Positions 646 to 63,655 of a stretch of 64,000 nt of DNA are shown here, one piece after another. Below the pieces are notes generated by a model. That model ran no database searches, was not told the DNA's origin, and saw only the letters and a program-made list of their open reading frames with translations. Source of the DNA: Falsiroseomonas tokyonensis (GTDB lineage: Bacteria; Pseudomonadota; Alphaproteobacteria; Acetobacterales; Acetobacteraceae); the NCBI RefSeq assembly GCF_019024325.1, contig NZ_JAFNJS010000001.1, positions 248,001 to 312,000 of the forward strand, read 5' to 3'. A program made the translations under genes and the position numbers. Every line of letters starts with the position of its first letter. Positions within the stretch are counted from its first letter, which is position 1.

Positions 646-3600
646 ATGGCGATGGCGCTGTTCGATGCCCTGACGACGACCCAGATCGGCCAGCTGACGA
701 CGACGACCATCGCCGCGCTGACCACCACCGAGGTCCGCTCGCTGGCGACGACTCAGATTGCCGCCCTGACCACGACACAGGTCACCGCCCTGGCCTCCAC
801 CCATCTCGGCGCGCTGCACAGCACGCAGGCGGCGGCGCTGGAGACGACGGATCTCGCGGTGCTCGGCACGGCGCAAATCCGCGGCCTGGTCTCCACGCAG
901 CTGACCGCGCTGAGCACGACGCAGCTGGGCGCCATCACCACGACGCAGATCGGCGCCCTCACCTCCACCCAGGCCAGCGTGCTGACCACCACCCAGGTGG
1001 CGGCGCTGACCACCACGCAGATCGGCGGGCTCGGCACCACCCAGGTGACGGGCCTGAGTTCGCAGCAGCTGGCGGCGCTGACCACCACCCAGGTGGGCGC
1101 GCTGACCTCGACCCAGCTGGGCGCTATCGGCGTCACCAAGATCCGCGGGCTGGAGACGACGGACCTCGCCGCGCTGACCACGACGCAGATCGCGGGCCTG
1201 ACGACGGCGCAGCTGGCGGGCCTCACCGCCACCCAGGCGGCGGCGCTGGAGACCACGGACCTGGTGGCGCTCACCACCACGCAGCTGCGCGGCCTGGCCA
1301 GCACCCAGCTCGCCGCGCTGACCACCACCCAGGCGGCGGCGCTCACCACCACGCAGCTCACCTCGCTGACCACCACCCAGATGGCGTCGCTGACCACGAC
1401 GCAGATGGCGGCGCTGACCACCACGCAGGTCGCGGCACTCGGCACCACGCAGGTGGGCGGGCTGACCTCGGCCCAGATCGGCGCGCTGAGCACGACGCAG
1501 GTGGGCGTGCTGACCTCCACCCAGATCGGCGCCATCGCCACCGGCCAGATCCGCGGCATCGAGACGACGGACCTGGCCGCGCTGACCACCACCCAGGTCG
1601 CGGGCCTGACGGCGACGCAGCTCGGCGCGCTGAGCGCGACGCAGATCGTGGCGCTGGAGACCACGGACCTGGCCGCGCTGACCACGACGCAGCTGCGCGG
1701 CCTGACCACCACGCAGATGGCGGCGCTGACCACGACGCAGGCCGCGGCGCTGACCACCACGCAGATCGGCGCGCTGGCCAATACGCAGGTGGCGGGGCTG
1801 AGCTCGCTGCAGCTGCCGGTGCTGACCACGACGCAGATCGGCGCCCTGACCTCGACCCAGATCGGCAGCATCAGCAGCATCGCGCTGCGCGGCATGGAGA
1901 CGACGGATCTCGCCGCGCTGACCACCACCCAGGTGGCGGGCCTGACGGCGACGCAGATCGGCGCGCTCACCACCACCCAGGCGGTGGCGCTGGAGACGAC
2001 GGACCTCGCCTCCCTCACCACGACGCAGCTGCGCGGCCTGACCTCGACGCAGCTGGCCGTGCTGACCACGACGCAGGCGGTGGCGCTGACCTCGACGCAG
2101 ATGGCGGCGCTGACGGGGACGCAATTCGCCGCGCTGAACTCCACCCAGGCGGCCGCGCTGACCACCACCCAGATCGGCGCCCTCGGCACCACCCAGGTGG
2201 CCGGGCTGACCAGCGCGCAGCTGGCCGCGCTGACCACCACGCAGATCGGCGTGCTCACCTCCACCCAGATCGGCGCCATCAGCAGCACGGCGCTGCGCGG
2301 GCTGGAGACGACGGATCTCGCGGCGCTGACCACGACGCAGATCGGGGGCCTGACGACGGCGCAGGTGGCGGCCCTGACCACCACCCAGGCGGCAGCGCTG
2401 GAGACCACGGATCTGGTGGCGCTGACCACCACCCAGCTCGGCGGCCTGACCTCCACCCAGATGGCGGCGCTGACCACCACCCAGGCCGCGGCGCTGACCA
2501 CCACCCAGATCGGCGCGCTCACCACCACCCAGGTGGGCGGCTTCACCACCACGCAGGTGGGCGCACTCACCACCACCCAGATCGGCGCCTTCGGCACCAC
2601 CCAGATCCAGGGCATCACCACCGGCCAGCTGGCCGCACTCACCACCACCCAGATCGGCGTTCTCACCTCCACCCAGATCGGCGCCATCCGCCGCAACTGG
2701 ATCACGGGGATGGAGACCACTGATCTTGCGGCGCTCACCACGACGCAGATCGGCGGGCTGATCTCCACCCAGATCAATGCGCTGACCACGACGCAGGTGG
2801 CCGCGCTGGAGACCACCGACCTCGCCGTGCTCACCACGACGCAGCTCACCGGCCTCAGCTCCACCCAGCTCGGCGCGCTCACCACCACCCAGGCCGCGGC
2901 GCTGACCACGACCCAGCTCGGCGCACTCGCCACCACCCAGCTCGGCGGCCTGAACAGCAGCCAGCTGGCGGCGCTGAGCACCACGCAGATCGGCGTGCTA
3001 ACTTCGACCCAGATCGCCAGCATCAGCTCCACCGCGCTGCGCGGCATGGAGACGACGGACCTCGCCGCGCTGACCACCACGCAGGTGGCGGGCCTGACGG
3101 CGGCGCAGATCGGCGCGCTGACCACCACCCAGGCCGCGGCGCTGGAAACCACCGACCTCGCCGCCTTCACCACCACCCAGCTGCGCGGCCTGACCACCAC
3201 GCAGATCGCGGCGCTCAGCACCACCCAGGCGGTCTCGCTGACCTCCACGCAGATGGCCGCGCTGGCTTCCAGCCAGTTCGCCGCGCTGACCTCCACCCAG
3301 GTGGGCGTGCTGACCACCACCCAGATCGGCGCGCTGGGCACCACCCAGGTGGCCGGGCTCACCTCCGCCCAGGTCGCGGCGCTGACCACCACGCAGATCG
3401 GCGTGCTGACCACGACGCAGATCGCGGCGATCGGCTCCACCCAGCTGCGTGGCATGGAGACCACCGACCTCGCGGCGCTGACCACGACGCAGATCGGCGG
3501 GTTGACCACCGCGCAGATCGCCTCGCTGACCACGACGCAGGCCGCGGCGATGGAGACGACCGACCTGGTGGCGCTGACGACCACCCAGCTCGGCGGCCTC

Positions 3601-6600
3601 ACCTCCACCCAGATGGCGGCGCTGACCACGACGCAGGCCGCGGCGCTGACCACCACGCAGATCGGCGCGCTCACCACCACCCAGGTCGGCGGCTTCACCA
3701 CCACCCAGGTGGGCGCACTCACCACCACCCAGATCGGCGCCTTCGGCACCACCCAGATCCAGGGCATCACCACCGGCCAGCTGGCCGCGCTGACCACCAC
3801 CCAGATCGGCGTCCTCACCTCCACCCAGATCGGCGCCATCCGCCGCAACTGGATCACCGGGATGGAGACGACCGACCTCGCGGCCCTCACCACCACGCAG
3901 ATCGGCGGGCTGATCTCCACCCAGATCAACGCGCTGACCACGACGCAAGTGGCGGCGCTGGAGACCACCGACCTCGCCGTGCTGACCACGACGCAGCTGG
4001 TGGGCCTCAGCTCCACCCAGCTCGGCGCGCTGACCACGACGCAGGCCGCAGCGCTCACCACGACGCAGCTCGGCGCGCTCGCCACCACCCAGCTTGGCGG
4101 CCTGAACAGCAGCCAGCTGGCGGCGCTCTCCACCACCCAGATCGGCGTGCTGACCTCCACCCAGATCGCCAGCATCAGCTCCACCGCGCTGCGCGGCATG
4201 GAGACCACCGACCTCGCCGCACTCACCACCACGCAGATCGGTGGCCTCACCACCGCCCAGATCGCGGCGCTGACCACCACCCAGGCCTCGGCGATGGAGA
4301 CGACGGACCTGGTGGCGCTGACCACCACGCAGCTGCGCGGCCTCAGCTCCACCCAGGTGGCGGCGCTGACCACGACGCAGGCGGCGGTGCTGACCACCAC
4401 CCAGGTGGCCGCGCTCACCACCACCCAGGTGGCGGCGCTCACCACCACCCAGGCCGGCATCCTCACCACCACCCAGCTCGGCGCCTTCGGCACCACCCAG
4501 GTCGCGGGCCTCACCTCCGCCCAGCTGGCGGCGCTGACCACGACGCAGGTGGGCGTGCTCACCTCCACCCAGATCGCCGCCATCACCAGCACCGCCCTGC
4601 GCGGGATGGAGACGACGGATCTCGCCGCACTGACCACCACCCAGGTGGCCGGCCTGACCACCGCGCAGATCGGCGCGCTGACCACCACCCAGGCCGCGGC
4701 GATGGAGACCACCGACCTGGTGGCGCTGACCACCACCCAGCTCGGCGGTCTCAGCTCCACCCAGCTCGGCGCGCTGACCACCACCCAGGCGGCCGCGCTG
4801 ACCACCACGCAGATCAGCAACCTGACCACGACCCAGGTGGGCGGCTTCACCACCACCCAGGTCGCCGCGCTTACCACCACCCAGATCGGCGCCTTCGGCA
4901 CCACCCAGATCCAGGGCATCACCACCGGCCAGCTGGCCGCGCTGACCACCACCCAGATCGGCGTCCTCACCTCCACCCAGATCGGCGCCATCCGCCGCAA
5001 CTGGATCCGGGGCATGGAGACCACCGACCTTGCGGCCCTGACCACGACGCAGGTCGGCGGCCTCACCTCCGACCAGGTGAACGGGCTGACCACCACCCAG
5101 GTGGCGGCGCTGGAAACCACCGACCTGGCGGTGCTGACCACCACCCAGCTCGGTGGCCTCACCTCCACCCAGCTTGGCGCGCTGACCACGACCCAGGCGG
5201 CCGCGCTGACCACGACCCAGCTCGGCGCCCTGGTGACCAGCCAGGTGGCGGGGCTCGCCTCCGGCCAGTTGGCGGCGCTGAGCACGACGCAGATCGGCGC
5301 GCTCAGCTCCACCCAGATCGCCAGCATCAGCTCCACCGCGCTGCGCGGCATGGAGACCACCGACCTCGCCGCGCTGACCACCACCCAGATCGGCGGCCTG
5401 ACCTCGGCGCAGATCGCGGCGCTGACCACCACCCAGGCCTCGGCGCTGGAAACCACCGACCTGGCCGTGCTCACCACCACCCAGCTGCGCGGCCTGACCA
5501 CCGCCCAGGTTGCGGCGCTGACCACGACGCAGGCGGCGGCGCTGACCACCACGCAGGTTGCCGCGCTCACCACCACCCAGGTGGCGGCGCTCACCACCAC
5601 CCAGGCCGGCATCCTCACCACCACCCAGATCGGCGCCTTCGGCACCACCCAGGTGGCGGGCCTGACCAGTGCGCAACTCGCCGCGCTGACCACGACGCAG
5701 ATCGGCGTGCTGACCTCCACCCAGATCGGCGCCCTCGTCACCACCGCCATCCGCGGCATGGAGACGACGGACCTCGCCGCGCTGACCACCACCCAGGTGG
5801 CCGGCCTGACCACGGCGCAGCTCACGGCCCTGACCTCGACCCAGGCCGCGGCGATGGAGACCACGGACCTGGTGGCGCTGACCACCACGCAGCTACGTGG
5901 CCTGGCCAGCACCCAGCTGGCGGCGCTGACCACCACCCAGGCGGCCGCGCTGACCACCACCCAGCTGGCGGCGATGACCACCACCCAGGTGGCCGCGCTG
6001 ACCACGACGCAGATGGCGGCGCTGACCACCACCCAGGTGGCGGGCCTCGGCACCACCCAGGTGGCCGGCATCACCTCCGGCCAGCTGGCGGCGCTGACCA
6101 CGACGCAGATCGGCGTGCTGACCTCGACCCAGATCGCCGCCCTCGTCACCACCGCCCTGCGCGGCATGGAGACGACGGACCTGGCCGCGCTCACCACCAC
6201 GCAGATCGGCGGCCTGACCACGGCGCAGGTCACCGCGCTGACCACCACCCAGGCGGCGGCGCTGGAGACGACGGACCTCGCGGTGCTGACCACCACCCAG
6301 CTCGGCGGCCTCACCTCCAGCCAGCTGGCGGCGCTGACCACCACCCAGGCGGTGGCGCTGACCACGACGCAGCTCGGCGCCCTGGCCACCAGCCAGATCG
6401 CCGGCCTGAACAGCGGCCAGCTGGCCGCGCTGACCACCACGCAGATCGGCGCGCTGAGCTCGACGCAGATCGGCGCCATCGTCACCACCGCCATCCGCGG
6501 CATGGAGACGACGGACCTGGCCGCCCTGACCACGACGCAGATCGCCGGCCTGACCACGGCGCAGATCACCGCTTTGACCTCCACCCAGGCGGCGGCGCTG

Positions 6601-7305
6601 GAGACCACGGACCTGGTGGCGCTCACCACCACCCAGCTGCGCGGCCTGGCCAGCACCCAGATCGCGGCGCTGACCACCACCCAGGCCACGGCGCTGACCA
6701 CGACGCAGCTCGCCTCGCTGACCACCGCCCAGACGGTGGAGCTGACCACCACCCAGGTGGCGGCGCTGACCACCACCCAGATCGGCGGCCTGGGCACCAC
6801 CCAGATCGGCGGCCTGGACAGCGCCCAGCTGGCCTCGCTGACCACCACCCAGGTGGGGGTGCTGACCTCCACCCAGATCGGCAGCATCAGCAGCGCGCAG
6901 ATCCGCGGGCTGGAGACGACGGATATCGCGGTGCTGACCACCACGCAGTTCGGCGGGCTGACCTCCACCCAGCTCGGCGCGCTGACCACCACCCAGGTCA
7001 CGGGCCTGACCACCACGGGGCTGGCGGCTATCACCACCACCCAGCTCACCGGCCTGACCGTGACCCAGATCGGCACGCTGACCACGACCCAGGTCGCGGC
7101 GCTGACCAGCACCTCCATCACCGCGCTGACGACGCGGCAGATGGAAGGGCTGACCACGACGCAGCTCGCCTCGCTCAGCACCACGCAGATCACGGCGCTG
7201 GAGGTGGCGGACATCACCGCGCTGACCGATACGCAGGTGGCGGGCTTCACCAGCACGCAGATCGGCGCGATGACCTCGAACCAGGTGAACGCGCTCTTCG
7301 CCTGA
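646..7305 (+). CDS. Giant octapeptide-repeat protein, about 277 units of ALTTTQIG type
   Basis: An uninterrupted frame of 2,219 codons. Essentially the whole protein is a tandem 8-residue repeat with consensus [AG]-L-[TSGE]-[TS]-T-[QD]-[ILVAM]-[AGR], encoded by 24-nt units. Units of the form LETTDL recur at fixed spacing, and an Arg-ending unit precedes every second one. There is no Cys, no signal peptide, no RTX nonapeptide, no beta-barrel and no LPXTG-like anchor; the first repeat begins within 10 residues of the start and the chain ends in a degenerate repeat (NQVNALFA). ATG 652 has a better-placed GGGAG site (639-643) than ATG 646 and may be the real start. The pattern L-[ST]-x-x-Q-[ILV] could form a short-helix or beta solenoid; the fold is not known to me. 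Function unrecognised: surface filament, adhesin or structural protein are guesses. Near-identical blocks differ mostly at synonymous sites, which supports real translation. Confidence 0.85.
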   Translation: MAMALFDALTTTQIGQLTTTTIAALTTTEVRSLATTQIAALTTTQVTALASTHLGALHSTQAAALETTDLAVLGTAQIRGLVSTQLTALSTTQLGAITTTQIGALTSTQASVLTTTQVAALTTTQIGGLGTTQVTGLSSQQLAALTTTQVGALTSTQLGAIGVTKIRGLETTDLAALTTTQIAGLTTAQLAGLTATQAAALETTDLVALTTTQLRGLASTQLAALTTTQAAALTTTQLTSLTTTQMASLTTTQMAALTTTQVAALGTTQVGGLTSAQIGALSTTQVGVLTSTQIGAIATGQIRGIETTDLAALTTTQVAGLTATQLGALSATQIVALETTDLAALTTTQLRGLTTTQMAALTTTQAAALTTTQIGALANTQVAGLSSLQLPVLTTTQIGALTSTQIGSISSIALRGMETTDLAALTTTQVAGLTATQIGALTTTQAVALETTDLASLTTTQLRGLTSTQLAVLTTTQAVALTSTQMAALTGTQFAALNSTQAAALTTTQIGALGTTQVAGLTSAQLAALTTTQIGVLTSTQIGAISSTALRGLETTDLAALTTTQIGGLTTAQVAALTTTQAAALETTDLVALTTTQLGGLTSTQMAALTTTQAAALTTTQIGALTTTQVGGFTTTQVGALTTTQIGAFGTTQIQGITTGQLAALTTTQIGVLTSTQIGAIRRNWITGMETTDLAALTTTQIGGLISTQINALTTTQVAALETTDLAVLTTTQLTGLSSTQLGALTTTQAAALTTTQLGALATTQLGGLNSSQLAALSTTQIGVLTSTQIASISSTALRGMETTDLAALTTTQVAGLTAAQIGALTTTQAAALETTDLAAFTTTQLRGLTTTQIAALSTTQAVSLTSTQMAALASSQFAALTSTQVGVLTTTQIGALGTTQVAGLTSAQVAALTTTQIGVLTTTQIAAIGSTQLRGMETTDLAALTTTQIGGLTTAQIASLTTTQAAAMETTDLVALTTTQLGGLTSTQMAALTTTQAAALTTTQIGALTTTQVGGFTTTQVGALTTTQIGAFGTTQIQGITTGQLAALTTTQIGVLTSTQIGAIRRNWITGMETTDLAALTTTQIGGLISTQINALTTTQVAALETTDLAVLTTTQLVGLSSTQLGALTTTQAAALTTTQLGALATTQLGGLNSSQLAALSTTQIGVLTSTQIASISSTALRGMETTDLAALTTTQIGGLTTAQIAALTTTQASAMETTDLVALTTTQLRGLSSTQVAALTTTQAAVLTTTQVAALTTTQVAALTTTQAGILTTTQLGAFGTTQVAGLTSAQLAALTTTQVGVLTSTQIAAITSTALRGMETTDLAALTTTQVAGLTTAQIGALTTTQAAAMETTDLVALTTTQLGGLSSTQLGALTTTQAAALTTTQISNLTTTQVGGFTTTQVAALTTTQIGAFGTTQIQGITTGQLAALTTTQIGVLTSTQIGAIRRNWIRGMETTDLAALTTTQVGGLTSDQVNGLTTTQVAALETTDLAVLTTTQLGGLTSTQLGALTTTQAAALTTTQLGALVTSQVAGLASGQLAALSTTQIGALSSTQIASISSTALRGMETTDLAALTTTQIGGLTSAQIAALTTTQASALETTDLAVLTTTQLRGLTTAQVAALTTTQAAALTTTQVAALTTTQVAALTTTQAGILTTTQIGAFGTTQVAGLTSAQLAALTTTQIGVLTSTQIGALVTTAIRGMETTDLAALTTTQVAGLTTAQLTALTSTQAAAMETTDLVALTTTQLRGLASTQLAALTTTQAAALTTTQLAAMTTTQVAALTTTQMAALTTTQVAGLGTTQVAGITSGQLAALTTTQIGVLTSTQIAALVTTALRGMETTDLAALTTTQIGGLTTAQVTALTTTQAAALETTDLAVLTTTQLGGLTSSQLAALTTTQAVALTTTQLGALATSQIAGLNSGQLAALTTTQIGALSSTQIGAIVTTAIRGMETTDLAALTTTQIAGLTTAQITALTSTQAAALETTDLVALTTTQLRGLASTQIAALTTTQATALTTTQLASLTTAQTVELTTTQVAALTTTQIGGLGTTQIGGLDSAQLASLTTTQVGVLTSTQIGSISSAQIRGLETTDIAVLTTTQFGGLTSTQLGALTTTQVTGLTTTGLAAITTTQLTGLTVTQIGTLTTTQVAALTSTSITALTTRQMEGLTTTQLASLSTTQITALEVADITALTDTQVAGFTSTQIGAMTSNQVNALFA
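646..7305 (+). repeat. Hierarchical tandem repeat: 24-nt unit, 408/336-nt modules, 1,152-nt blocks
   Basis: Three levels are visible. Level 1 is a 24-nt unit coding 8 residues. Level 2 is marked by GAGACSACSGA (Glu-Thr-Thr-Asp) units: their positions 841, 1153, 1249, 1561, 1657, 1897, 1993, 2305, 2401, 2713 and 2809 give spacings of 312 and 96 nt (13 + 4 units, 408-nt module) with an occasional 240 + 96 (10 + 4 units, 336-nt module). Level 3 is marked by an Arg-Arg-Asn-Trp unit at 2689, 3841 and 4993, spaced exactly 1,152 nt (48 units = 17 + 17 + 14). Confidence 0.9.
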
Positions 7306-45662: not shown

Positions 45663-45779
45663 GCCCCCACCCCGACCAGCCTTCGGCGTCGCGGCAGCGC
45701 CGCGACCCCCCGTAAAGCGGGGGAGGGAGGCGCCCTGACTCCCTCCCCCGTTCTCACGGGGGAGGGTTGGGGTGGGGGC
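45663..45779. repeat. 117-bp palindromic element with inverted ends, copy 1
   Basis: Ends: GCCCCCACCCC (45663-45673) and GGGGTGGGGGC (45769-45779). Internal stems: GTCGCGGC/GCCGCGAC (45688-45706), CCCCCG/CGGGGG (45707-45723) and CCCTCCCCCGT/ACGGGGGAGGG (45741-45766). It lies between the amidohydrolase gene and the Bug gene at 45866. Copy 2 is at 53513-53628. Confidence 0.8.
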
Positions 45780-61791: not shown

Positions 61792-62370
61792 TCAGAGCGG
61801 CATGCAGCGGACGATGTCGTCATGCCCGCGGGCGAGGGTGGCGAAGGTGCCCACCGGGCAATCGCGCTGCGACATGGTCACGGCCGGCAGGCCGGCCTGC
61901 CAGCCGGCGATGCTGCTGCGGCGAGAGATGGTGGCCGCGGCCGCACCGCGCACCACCACGCCACCGCGCTGGGTGCGCACATCGCCGCGGCGCACGACCT
62001 GCTGGCGGGACGCCGCCGCCTGGCGCGTGCTGCTGCGTGCGGCACTGCGGCTGCTGGCGCGGGCGGTCGCCCGGGCGGCGGTACGCGGCGTGCTGCGGGC
62101 CGCGCTGCGGGTGCTGCTGCGGGCGGCGGTGCGTGCGGCGCTGCGCGGCGTGGCACGGCTGGCGCTGCGCGGCGTGCTGCGGCTGGCCGTGGCCGGGGTG
62201 GCGCGGCTGGCGGCCCGCGGCGTGGCGCGGGTGGAGGCCCGGCTGGCCGGGCTGGCGGCGAGATTCGTTCTGCTGACCGATGTGCCGCTTCGTTCATCCC
62301 GCCTAGCGGCATCAGCCGACTGGGGTGCAAGGACGAGCACGGACAACAGGGCGAGCAGGATTAGCCGCAT
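61792..62370 (-). CDS. Secreted Ala/Arg/Ser/Thr tetrapeptide-repeat protein
   Basis: 192 residues from ATG 62368-62370. Signal peptide MRLILLALLSVLVLAPQSAD, cut near ADA-A. The middle (about residues 38-120) is a basic low-complexity run in which Arg recurs nearly every fourth residue: RSAARTAARSSTRSAARSTP is a typical stretch. The C-terminus is ordered-looking, with a Cys pair: SIAGWQAGLPAVTMSQRDCP, VGTFATLARGHDDIVRCMPL. I do not recognise the family; the composition recalls histone-H1-like proteins but this one is exported. A good terminator follows. Polyanion binding at the cell surface is a guess. Confidence 0.78.
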   Translation of the reverse strand: MRLILLALLSVLVLAPQSADAARRDERSGTSVSRTNLAASPASRASTRATPRAASRATPATASRSTPRSASRATPRSAARTAARSSTRSAARSTPRTAARATARASSRSAARSSTRQAAASRQQVVRRGDVRTQRGGVVVRGAAAATISRRSSIAGWQAGLPAVTMSQRDCPVGTFATLARGHDDIVRCMPL

Positions 62371-62497
62371 GCGAAGAAAGTCCCCCAATTCACCACACCG
62401 GCCTGATGGCCCGGCGTGGTTCCCCCGAACCCCCAAGGGTTCCCCGAGGCCTACTAGACTGACGGCCCCGTGACCTGTCAACGCGCATTTCAGGATG

Positions 62498-63655
62498 TTA
62501 CGTGAGGTGCTGAAGTCCAAGCCAATCCTGGCTTTGCATCTCGTTCAGCCGGCTCGCAGTACGCGCGAACATGGCAGCATTATGGCCTTCTTCATGCAGC
62601 CGATCGGGGATCGCCTCCGCGCTGGCCAGCAGCTTCACGCGATGTTCGTAGAGCGTATCGACCAGCGTGATGAAGCGCCGGGCGCGGTCGAAATTCTCCG
62701 GATTGAGACGCGGGATGCCGTCCAGGATCAGTGTGTGGAAATGCGTCGCGATCGCCAGGTAGTCGGCCGGGCCCAGCGGCCGGCCGCAGAGCGACTCGAA
62801 ATCGAAGCGCGCCACCCCCTCCACCGCCTGCGGCACTTCCAGCGACCGGCCGAGCAGGGTCAGGCGCATGGGCTTGCCGTGCCGCTGGCCGGTCAACTCC
62901 TCGAAGGCCGCATCCAGCGCCCGCGTCGCCCGCTCATCCGCCGGCACATGCCAGGTGGGCAGCGCCCGGATCCGGTCGCGGCGATAATCCCGCGCCGCCT
63001 CCAGCGTCAGCACCTCCAGCCGGCGGGAGATCAGGCCGATGAAGGGCAGGAAGGCATCGCGGCCGGGGCGGCCCTTGAACAGATCCGCCGGCGCGGTGTT
63101 GGAGGTGGCGACCACCACCGTGCCGCGGGCGAACAGCGCCTGGAACAGCCGGCCGAGGATCATCGCATCGGCGATGTCATGCACCTGGAATTCGTCGAAG
63201 CAGAGCAGCGCGGCCTCCGACGTGATGGCATCGGCCAGCGGCGGGATCGGGTCCGCCGTATCGCCGTGCTGCTTCTTCCAGGCATGGATGCGCCGGTGCG
63301 CGTCCTGCATGAATTGGTGGAAGTGGATGCGCCGCTTGCGGGTCACCTCCGCCGTTTCGAAGAACAGGTCCATCAGCATGGATTTGCCGCGGCCGACCTC
63401 GCCCACCAGGTACAGGCCCATCGGCGTGCCCGCGGGGGCTTCCTCGGCGGCCACCGGCTTGCGGCGGGTGAAGCGGGCGAAGAAGCCGCCCTTCTCCGGC
63501 TCCTCCGGATGCGGGTCGTAGCCCCGGGTGCGGCGCCAGAGATCCTGCAGCACCTCCACCGCTCGCGCCTGGGCCGGGTCGGCGGCCAATACGCCTTCCG
63601 CGAGGCGGGCACGGTAGGTCACGAGCGGACCCCCGGGGGACGGGCGATCATTCAT
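62498..63655 (-). CDS. zapE: Cell division protein ZapE (AFG1-like ATPase)
   Basis: 385 residues from ATG 63653-63655. AFG1/ZapE signatures: GLYLVGEVGRGKSMLMDLFF (Walker A), RRIHFHQFMQDAHRRIHAWK, LLCFDEFQVHDIADAMILGR (Walker B and sensor region), VVVATSNTAPADLFKGRPGR and the C-terminal FITLVDTLYEHRVKLLASAE. In E. coli ZapE is an ATPase that affects FtsZ ring stability; the mitochondrial homologue is AFG1. In Alphaproteobacteria it often lies beside mdh-suc genes, as here (with two small genes between). Confidence 0.92.
   Translation of the reverse strand: MNDRPSPGGPLVTYRARLAEGVLAADPAQARAVEVLQDLWRRTRGYDPHPEEPEKGGFFARFTRRKPVAAEEAPAGTPMGLYLVGEVGRGKSMLMDLFFETAEVTRKRRIHFHQFMQDAHRRIHAWKKQHGDTADPIPPLADAITSEAALLCFDEFQVHDIADAMILGRLFQALFARGTVVVATSNTAPADLFKGRPGRDAFLPFIGLISRRLEVLTLEAARDYRRDRIRALPTWHVPADERATRALDAAFEELTGQRHGKPMRLTLLGRSLEVPQAVEGVARFDFESLCGRPLGPADYLAIATHFHTLILDGIPRLNPENFDRARRFITLVDTLYEHRVKLLASAEAIPDRLHEEGHNAAMFARTASRLNEMQSQDWLGLQHLT

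Follow-up and report, generated by a model that had tools for sequence, protein, structure and literature searches.

We infer that the giant protein encoded near the left end of the analysed DNA is, on balance, probably a threonine-O-glycosylated, type I-secreted α-screw rod for the cell surface, on which a dedicated module for glycosylation and export acts. A sugar-coated, screw-shaped surface rod is probable because the gene usually lies beside a gene for a GT41 glycosyltransferase, a type of enzyme that links sugars to threonine, and sometimes beside an export pump. More tentatively, a widespread system may exist in many Proteobacteria, whose OGT-family enzymes would have giant α-screw rods (one turn in about 3.43 octads, acidic on one side and basic on the opposite one) as dedicated substrates that are Thr-O-glycosylated, exported by type I systems and joined side by side into a fibre or coat; we consider this extension possible rather than probable. 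The repeat family itself is already catalogued (PF20080), while the GT41/export module, the period and the charged sides are added here. In the literature searched, which comprised few subscription papers and no preprints, we found no function for PF20080, no paper naming the repeat, no link between repeat and GT41, and no account of module, pitch or charged sides.

The octapeptide array and its family

The window, i.e. the whole stretch of 64,000 nucleotides from Falsiroseomonas tokyonensis that was analysed, contains the following features:

2–406, − strand: 5′ part of the nearer GT41 gene (TPR + Glyco_transf_41), the remainder of which lies left of the window (L047)
407–645, no strand: divergent intergenic region between GT41 and giant; the GT41 start is put at 406, where the conserved reading has its first Met
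652–7305, + strand: giant ALTTAQ-repeat gene; the ORF opens at 646, 652 being the likelier start
670–7293, + strand: 276 uninterrupted octads, counted in a single register
1150–2301, + strand: 48-octad unit, copy 1 (ETTD spacing, copy comparison); the copy modelled with AlphaFold2
2302–3453, + strand: 48-octad unit, copy 2 (ETTD spacing, copy comparison)
3454–4605, + strand: 48-octad unit, copy 3 (ETTD spacing, copy comparison)
4606–5757, + strand: 48-octad unit, copy 4 (ETTD spacing, copy comparison)
5758–6909, + strand: 48-octad unit, copy 5 (ETTD spacing, copy comparison)
7243–7302, + strand: conserved C-terminal 20 residues, common to the 13 closest loci compared (13/13)

According to the ORF list, the frame 646–7305 (+) spans 2219 codons without an internal stop. 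A GGGAGA at 639–644 is better spaced to ATG 652 than to ATG 646, and at the position corresponding to ATG 652 the G001 homologue has MALFD, so that the later start is the likelier one. Octads fill residues 9–2216 (n = 276) in one register with zero slips, and their consensus is L-T-T-T-Q-[ILV]-[AG]-[AG]. Position 0 was L, I, M or F in 276/276 octads, whereas Thr and Ser together numbered 0, 201, 262, 239, 2, 1, 20 and 15 at positions 0 to 7. The protein contains 626 Thr (28.2%), 114 Ser, one Lys, one Pro and no Cys. A sequence-only reading had described ORF 646–7305 (2219 aa) as a very long, near-pure, Thr-rich octapeptide array that begins within 10 residues of the start, runs to the stop and has neither a signal peptide nor a recognisable end domain. 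The ORF and the register count confirm this description, with octads at both ends and no other credible domain, and adjust its figures from about 277 to 276 units and from about a third Thr to 28.2%.

Octads reading ETTD recur at spacings of 13, 4, 13, 4, 10 and 4, which reveals a 48-octad unit (384 aa, 1152 bp) present in five copies. Copies 2–5 are 76–78% identical to copy 1, and ETTD also marks blocks of 17 and 14 octads below the level of this unit. Across all ten pairs of the five copies dN/dS was 0.15–0.46, and in five relatives (L050–L054) the giant frames had a third-position G+C of 0.88–0.97. Together with the frame being kept in homologues, these values identify the + strand as coding. 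Copies 1 and 5, the sole pair computed on the antisense strand as well, gave 0.46 (sense) and 0.60 (antisense). The antisense ORF 753–7256 (2167 aa) was thus ruled out as a gene by homology and dN/dS; it is a by-product of the repeat. Possibly the C-terminal 20 residues of the giant are a type I export signal or a cap.

The giant matched the Pfam family PF20080 (ALTTAQ_rpt, ALTTAQ repeat) in 69 stretches with 1546 bits (cut-off 26.4), while the NCBIfam profile search gave no match for it. The sequence-only reading, which had placed the protein in no family and had proposed a profile search, is thereby superseded on the first point; since no text giving a function for PF20080 was found, the family is not a well-described one with known function. 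Matches to LRR_EndoS (64.8 bits) and CAAP1 (38.4 bits), both above their cut-offs, and to Fibrinogen_BP and Gp5_trimer_C, below theirs, were taken as low-complexity matches, as were the LRR receptor chains among the solved-sequence matches. A phage origin was rejected as a search of a phage collection gave no match, and a role in anti-phage defence as no PADLOC family was found for the giant or either GT41.

PF20080 proteins are present in 19 of the 59 genomes searched, the window genome (G000) included, which encodes two besides the giant (1247 aa, C23; 429 aa, C58). The 1247-aa paralogue (L048:7319-11062) has other neighbours, and one of like kind occurs in G012 (L141:8261-11701). The 429-aa protein (L049:8891-10180) combines DUF1217 with ALTTAQ repeats and is encoded directly behind flagellin genes; genes resembling it lie at the flagellin clusters of G002, G009 and G014. 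A contig scan with one 384-aa unit yielded 130 relatives, of which the best 80 were kept, corresponding to 74 distinct loci; this sample therefore leans to close relatives, and it overlaps with the 59 genomes in at least three loci (L055, L057 and L058 with G001, G005 and G013). The taxon labels of the 74 loci comprise Alphaproteobacteria, Betaproteobacteria, a Pseudomonas MAG, Solidesulfovibrio and Magnetococcales as well as MAGs labelled Verrucomicrobiales, Opitutia and Marinimicrobia. Their stop-to-stop frames range from 593 to 5,610 aa, both extremes, like several others, being cut by contig ends. A great length without cap domains, which had been regarded as unusual, is hence ordinary for the family. 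In L072, L097 and L124 a second repeat frame of like kind stands in tandem with the giant. Some ALTTAQ proteins bear the misleading record names 'ICE nucleation protein' and 'heme utilization protein' (L129:7919-12604; L131:5145-8243).

Two further features of the window were recorded. An ORF at 61792–62520 (−) begins, judged by eye, like a signal peptide and continues as a low-complexity Ser/Ala/Arg/Thr/Pro stretch, with tandem repeats at 62015–62234 inside it. ARAGORN called a tRNA-Phe with anticodon AAA at 45677–45770 (+), which is likely spurious given its odd anticodon and length.

Glycosyltransferase and export genes beside the array

Two tandem GT41 (OGT/SPINDLY-type) genes are oriented divergently from the giant gene. 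The nearer one starts about 0.24 kb away, and the second lies further left, outside the window, as do type I ABC and HlyD genes. Each of the two GT41 genes encodes TPR and Glyco_transf_41 domains, and among solved proteins XcOGT and human OGT are most closely related to the nearer enzyme. Residues aligned to H218 and K388 of XcOGT (numbering counted on the alignment), which we take to be catalytic, were found in 66/66 GT41 neighbour ORFs; stricter motif patterns, judged too strict, recovered the His motif in 55/66 and the Lys motif in 22/66.

A GT41 ORF occurred in the flank of 52/74 loci and of 39/46 loci in which the giant frame is closed and each flank measures 2.5 kb or more. Among these 39, it was located downstream on the same strand in 33, upstream and divergent in three and upstream on the same strand in two, while at L095 the GT41 ORF overlaps the 3′ end of the giant gene and continues downstream. 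The background amounts to roughly one GT41 gene per 3.8 Mb (127 stretches at about two per gene in about 242 Mb of the 59 genomes, summed by hand). At least ten PF20080 matches were present in 14/59 genomes, and in 13 of these 14 a GT41 gene was seen by eye beside the array on the same contig; in the exception, G028, array and GT41 are both near contig starts. Some observations speak against the favoured reading: GT41 was absent at 7/46 complete loci (L062, L072, L080, L082, L104, L112 and L127), GT41 genes of like kind occur without the repeat in G034, G035, G036 and G056, and near the 1247-aa paralogue of the window genome we found a weak ABC match and no match to GT41 or HlyD. Of the loci lacking GT41, L104 shows ABC and HlyD matches and L127 has genes for HlyD, an outer membrane efflux protein (OEP) and a group 1 glycosyltransferase. 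At the flagellin clusters of G009 and G014 the short repeat protein is accompanied by a GT41 gene, and in G002 the short repeat protein is present and GT41 absent; these three were not counted as giant/GT41 modules.

The giant might instead be a type I-secreted adhesin or spacer with an unglycosylated Thr-rich surface, the GT41 enzyme modifying flagellin or another surface protein. This would account for the seven complete loci without GT41 and for the GT41 genes at the flagellin clusters of G009 and G014, and FlmG-type GT41 enzymes modify flagellin according to the published account (PMC7591256). However, GT41 adjoins the giant in 39/46 loci, mostly downstream in the same orientation (33 loci), across several bacterial classes, and in the partly annotated flanks flagellar genes were mostly not noted beside it. 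We therefore regard an unglycosylated adhesin as unlikely.

In the window genome, ABC exporter and HlyD genes end about 8.4 kb upstream of the giant gene, and the interval holds two methyltransferase genes and a GGDEF/EAL gene. HlyD scored above its NCBIfam type I cut-off; for the ABC protein the HlyB-type type I model was best, at 619 bits and thus below its cut-off of 725. An ABC–HlyD pair near the gene, as expected for a type I substrate, is hence present in this genome. Genes for type I secretion (T1SS) lie beside the repeat gene in Acetobacteraceae, Cereibacter, Pseudomonas and a Magnetococcales MAG, but an ABC protein with at least 70% identity to that of the window genome was found in 10/74 flanks, which counts against the favoured reading. 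A plasmid search matched 48 records, of which five were inspected. Plasmid pA of Cereibacter sphaeroides 2.4.1 carries HlyD, ABC and GT41 genes followed by a divergent 1561-aa giant, and the Pseudomonas plasmid pCC1524 (P. asturiensis) encodes two ALTTAQ proteins, GT41 and a TolC-HlyD-ABC set. In Rhizobium sp. ACO-34A, GT41 immediately precedes a 2303-aa giant, and T1SS genes were absent from the stretch inspected. Pseudoroseomonas cervicalis has genes for an O-linked GlcNAc transferase, HlyD and ABC by annotation only. The Niveispirillum (H1) record carries no annotation; in each of the other four plasmids a glycosyltransferase gene was nearby. The repeat region of P. cervicalis (L130:8275-13362) is annotated as several hypothetical genes and is perhaps broken or badly sequenced.

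The betaproteobacterial giant of L085 ends in a domain matching FrpC (PDB 6sjw, E 4e-40), and the C-terminal parts of L069 and L091 gave weak EF-hand matches. A non-repeat domain at the end was seen in these three and in other giants of Betaproteobacteria and Pseudomonas.

Alternatively, the giant could be a cytoplasmic scaffold or filament, such as an intracellular ruler or a cytoskeleton-like rod, that GT41 modifies for solubility and that is not exported. The giant indeed lacks a signal peptide, but type I substrates need no N-terminal signal. For 64/74 flanks no close T1SS ABC gene was found, yet T1SS genes adjoin the array in the four groups named above and one homologue ends in an FrpC-like domain. 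GT41 enzymes are cytoplasmic according to the published account (PMC7591256), which fits this view as well; overall we consider a cytoplasmic scaffold decidedly unlikely.

Predicted fold, period and charged sides

AlphaFold2 modelled copy 1 with a pLDDT of 95.4 and a pTM of 0.83 (374/384 residues at pLDDT ≥90), the alignment consisting of the four other internal copies and thus being shallow, which can flatter confidence. The model contains 47 helices of at least four residues for 48 octads, and since they start at octad position 2, positions 0 and 1 would form the turn. One short helix per octad, i.e. an α-screw, is thus predicted. Single-sequence AlphaFold2 on 30 octads of the Sphaerotilus homologue L113 gave a pLDDT of 56 and long continuous helices, and this run does not support the short-helix screw model. 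The fold, which had been called unclear when a prediction of consecutive units was proposed, is therefore clearer than supposed when internal copies are used, while for the distant homologue on its own the earlier caution stands. The closest solved sequence was HeliScrew4 (PDB 9zem, E 1e-14), which was not among the best 50 of 344 Foldseek matches. Within these best 50 of 344, five matches had E ≤0.001, all of them mesothelin; with TM scores of 0.21–0.36 against the PDB entries we do not believe that the folds are the same.

The array was searched for periods with one octad as one step, a band of 3.36–3.53 and 200 octad shuffles. There were 76 sources (the window, L048 and the 74 loci); those with fewer than 60 octads in register (L048, L094 and L121) were left out, so that 73 remained. 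The band rose above all 200 shuffles in 65/73 giants, with a median period of 3.431, and was the highest interior peak in 60/73. Eight of the 73 did not pass, and L084, L102 and L123 show nothing at the band, which argues against the favoured reading. In the window and 41 homologues picked for long frames, period 2.0 (the edge of the spectrum, left unranked) was strongest in a number of cases, and peaks appeared at 2.40 and 8.0, the aliased positions of the second and third harmonics of 3.43. Further periods were 3.41 in C. sphaeroides, 3.38 in L140 (468 aa) and 3.39 as second peak in L131 and L141; in the paralogue L048 the period was weakly seen, as a third peak at 3.47.

On a 24/7 lattice, 48 octads correspond to 14 turns. 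Placed on it, 64/72 acidic residues of the window array fall within one 90° arc and 28/32 basic residues within a roughly opposite 90° arc. For the charge test the period was chosen from uncharged residues only, and 51 giants had enough charges. The mean directions of acids and bases were 192° apart on average and in 49/51 within 90° of opposite; in the 38 giants where both were phased (p < 0.02) the mean was 189° (R 0.86). In five giants (L082, L091, L100, L102 and L103) the acid phase was unclear (p > 0.02). Mutual exclusion of charges inside one octad would separate acids and bases too, yet less sharply to 180°. Sequences that share ancestry do not count as independent cases, and shuffling disrupts tandem duplications; the stronger argument is the agreement among lineages with differing long-range repeats.

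Proposed role and comparison with known systems

In the glycosylated, exported rod that we favour, L and the I/L/V of each octad would pack in the core, the first Thr would cap the short helix, and the next two Thr/Ser (positions 2 and 3) would face outward. At about 3.43 octads per turn, as the period suggests, 276 octads would make about 80 turns and, assuming that turns pack 0.95–1 nm apart, a rod of very roughly 75–80 nm. The two adjacent GT41 enzymes would O-glycosylate surface Thr/Ser in the cytoplasm, as the neighbourhood and the conserved catalytic residues suggest. Gene neighbourhood likewise points to export by the HlyB/HlyD-type system without a signal peptide, perhaps via the conserved C-terminus. 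Once exported, rods may join up, acidic side to basic side, into a fibrous layer coated with sugars that would serve in adhesion, aggregation or shielding. In support we count the GT41 flanks (52/74 and 39/46 against the background of one per 3.8 Mb), the XcOGT-aligned His and Lys (66/66), HlyD above its cut-off, the plasmid modules, the pLDDT of 95.4, the period (65/73), the charged sides (49/51), the C-terminus (13/13), the FrpC-like domain of L085 and the FlmG precedent.

That the array is self-expanding repeat DNA of little function, open merely because the unit lacks stops, would suit the variable frames of congeners (from 1248 aa in a frame truncated at a contig end up to 2729 aa) and the lack of any match in 4/14 other genomes of the genus (G004, G006, G008 and G011), but is scarcely credible given dN/dS of 0.15–0.46 between copies, 2219 codons without stop or register slip, the conserved C-terminus, and neighbours and period kept across lineages.

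The substrates of many bacterial OGT/SPINDLY homologues are not known, and the giant offers a concrete, testable candidate: it has hundreds of potential sites, and a homologue exists in the laboratory strain C. sphaeroides 2.4.1. Should the glycosylated-rod reading be true, a giant, sugar-modified rod would join the known surface structures of Gram-negative bacteria, the misleading labels 'ICE nucleation protein' and 'heme utilization protein' would be corrected, and there would be a natural α-screw whose pitch can be read from its sequence.

Among known systems, ice nucleation proteins lend their name to the C. sphaeroides homologue and share a Thr-rich tandem repeat; this assignment was rejected because there was no ice-nucleation Pfam match and helices rather than a β-solenoid are predicted. 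RTX/FrpC proteins resemble the family in that L085 ends in an FrpC-matching domain and T1SS genes lie near some loci. The giant itself differs in having no FrpC-like end or other domain; no Pfam match to Gly/Asp-rich nonapeptide repeats was obtained, and its octads run to the end. The serine-rich repeat glycoproteins of Gram-positive bacteria are likewise Ser/Thr-rich repeat giants with dedicated cytoplasmic glycosyltransferases encoded adjacent. Their enzymes are of the GtfA/B type, and they rely on accessory Sec and carry a wall anchor, whereas the giant has GT41 and type I genes, no signal peptide and short-helix repeats; with 626 Thr against 114 Ser, octads to both ends and no anchor domain, it departs from the serine-rich repeat proteins in composition and in its ends. 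HeliScrew4 (PDB 9zem), a design judging from its name, shares octapeptide repeats (L-[TS]-x-[EQD]-x-[IVF]-A-x) with the giant but, compared by sequence alone, is a 120-residue chain with a loop rich in Pro, Glu, Lys and Asp. The closest precedent for the enzymes is FlmG of Caulobacter, a glycosyltransferase whose TPR domain, according to the published account, binds the flagellins that are exported (PMC7591256). FlmG resembles the GT41 neighbours in joining TPR and glycosyltransferase domains and, as proposed for them, acts in the cytoplasm on an exported protein at Thr (PMC7591256). The FlmG substrate is flagellin, whereas the candidate substrate of the GT41 neighbours is the repeat protein.
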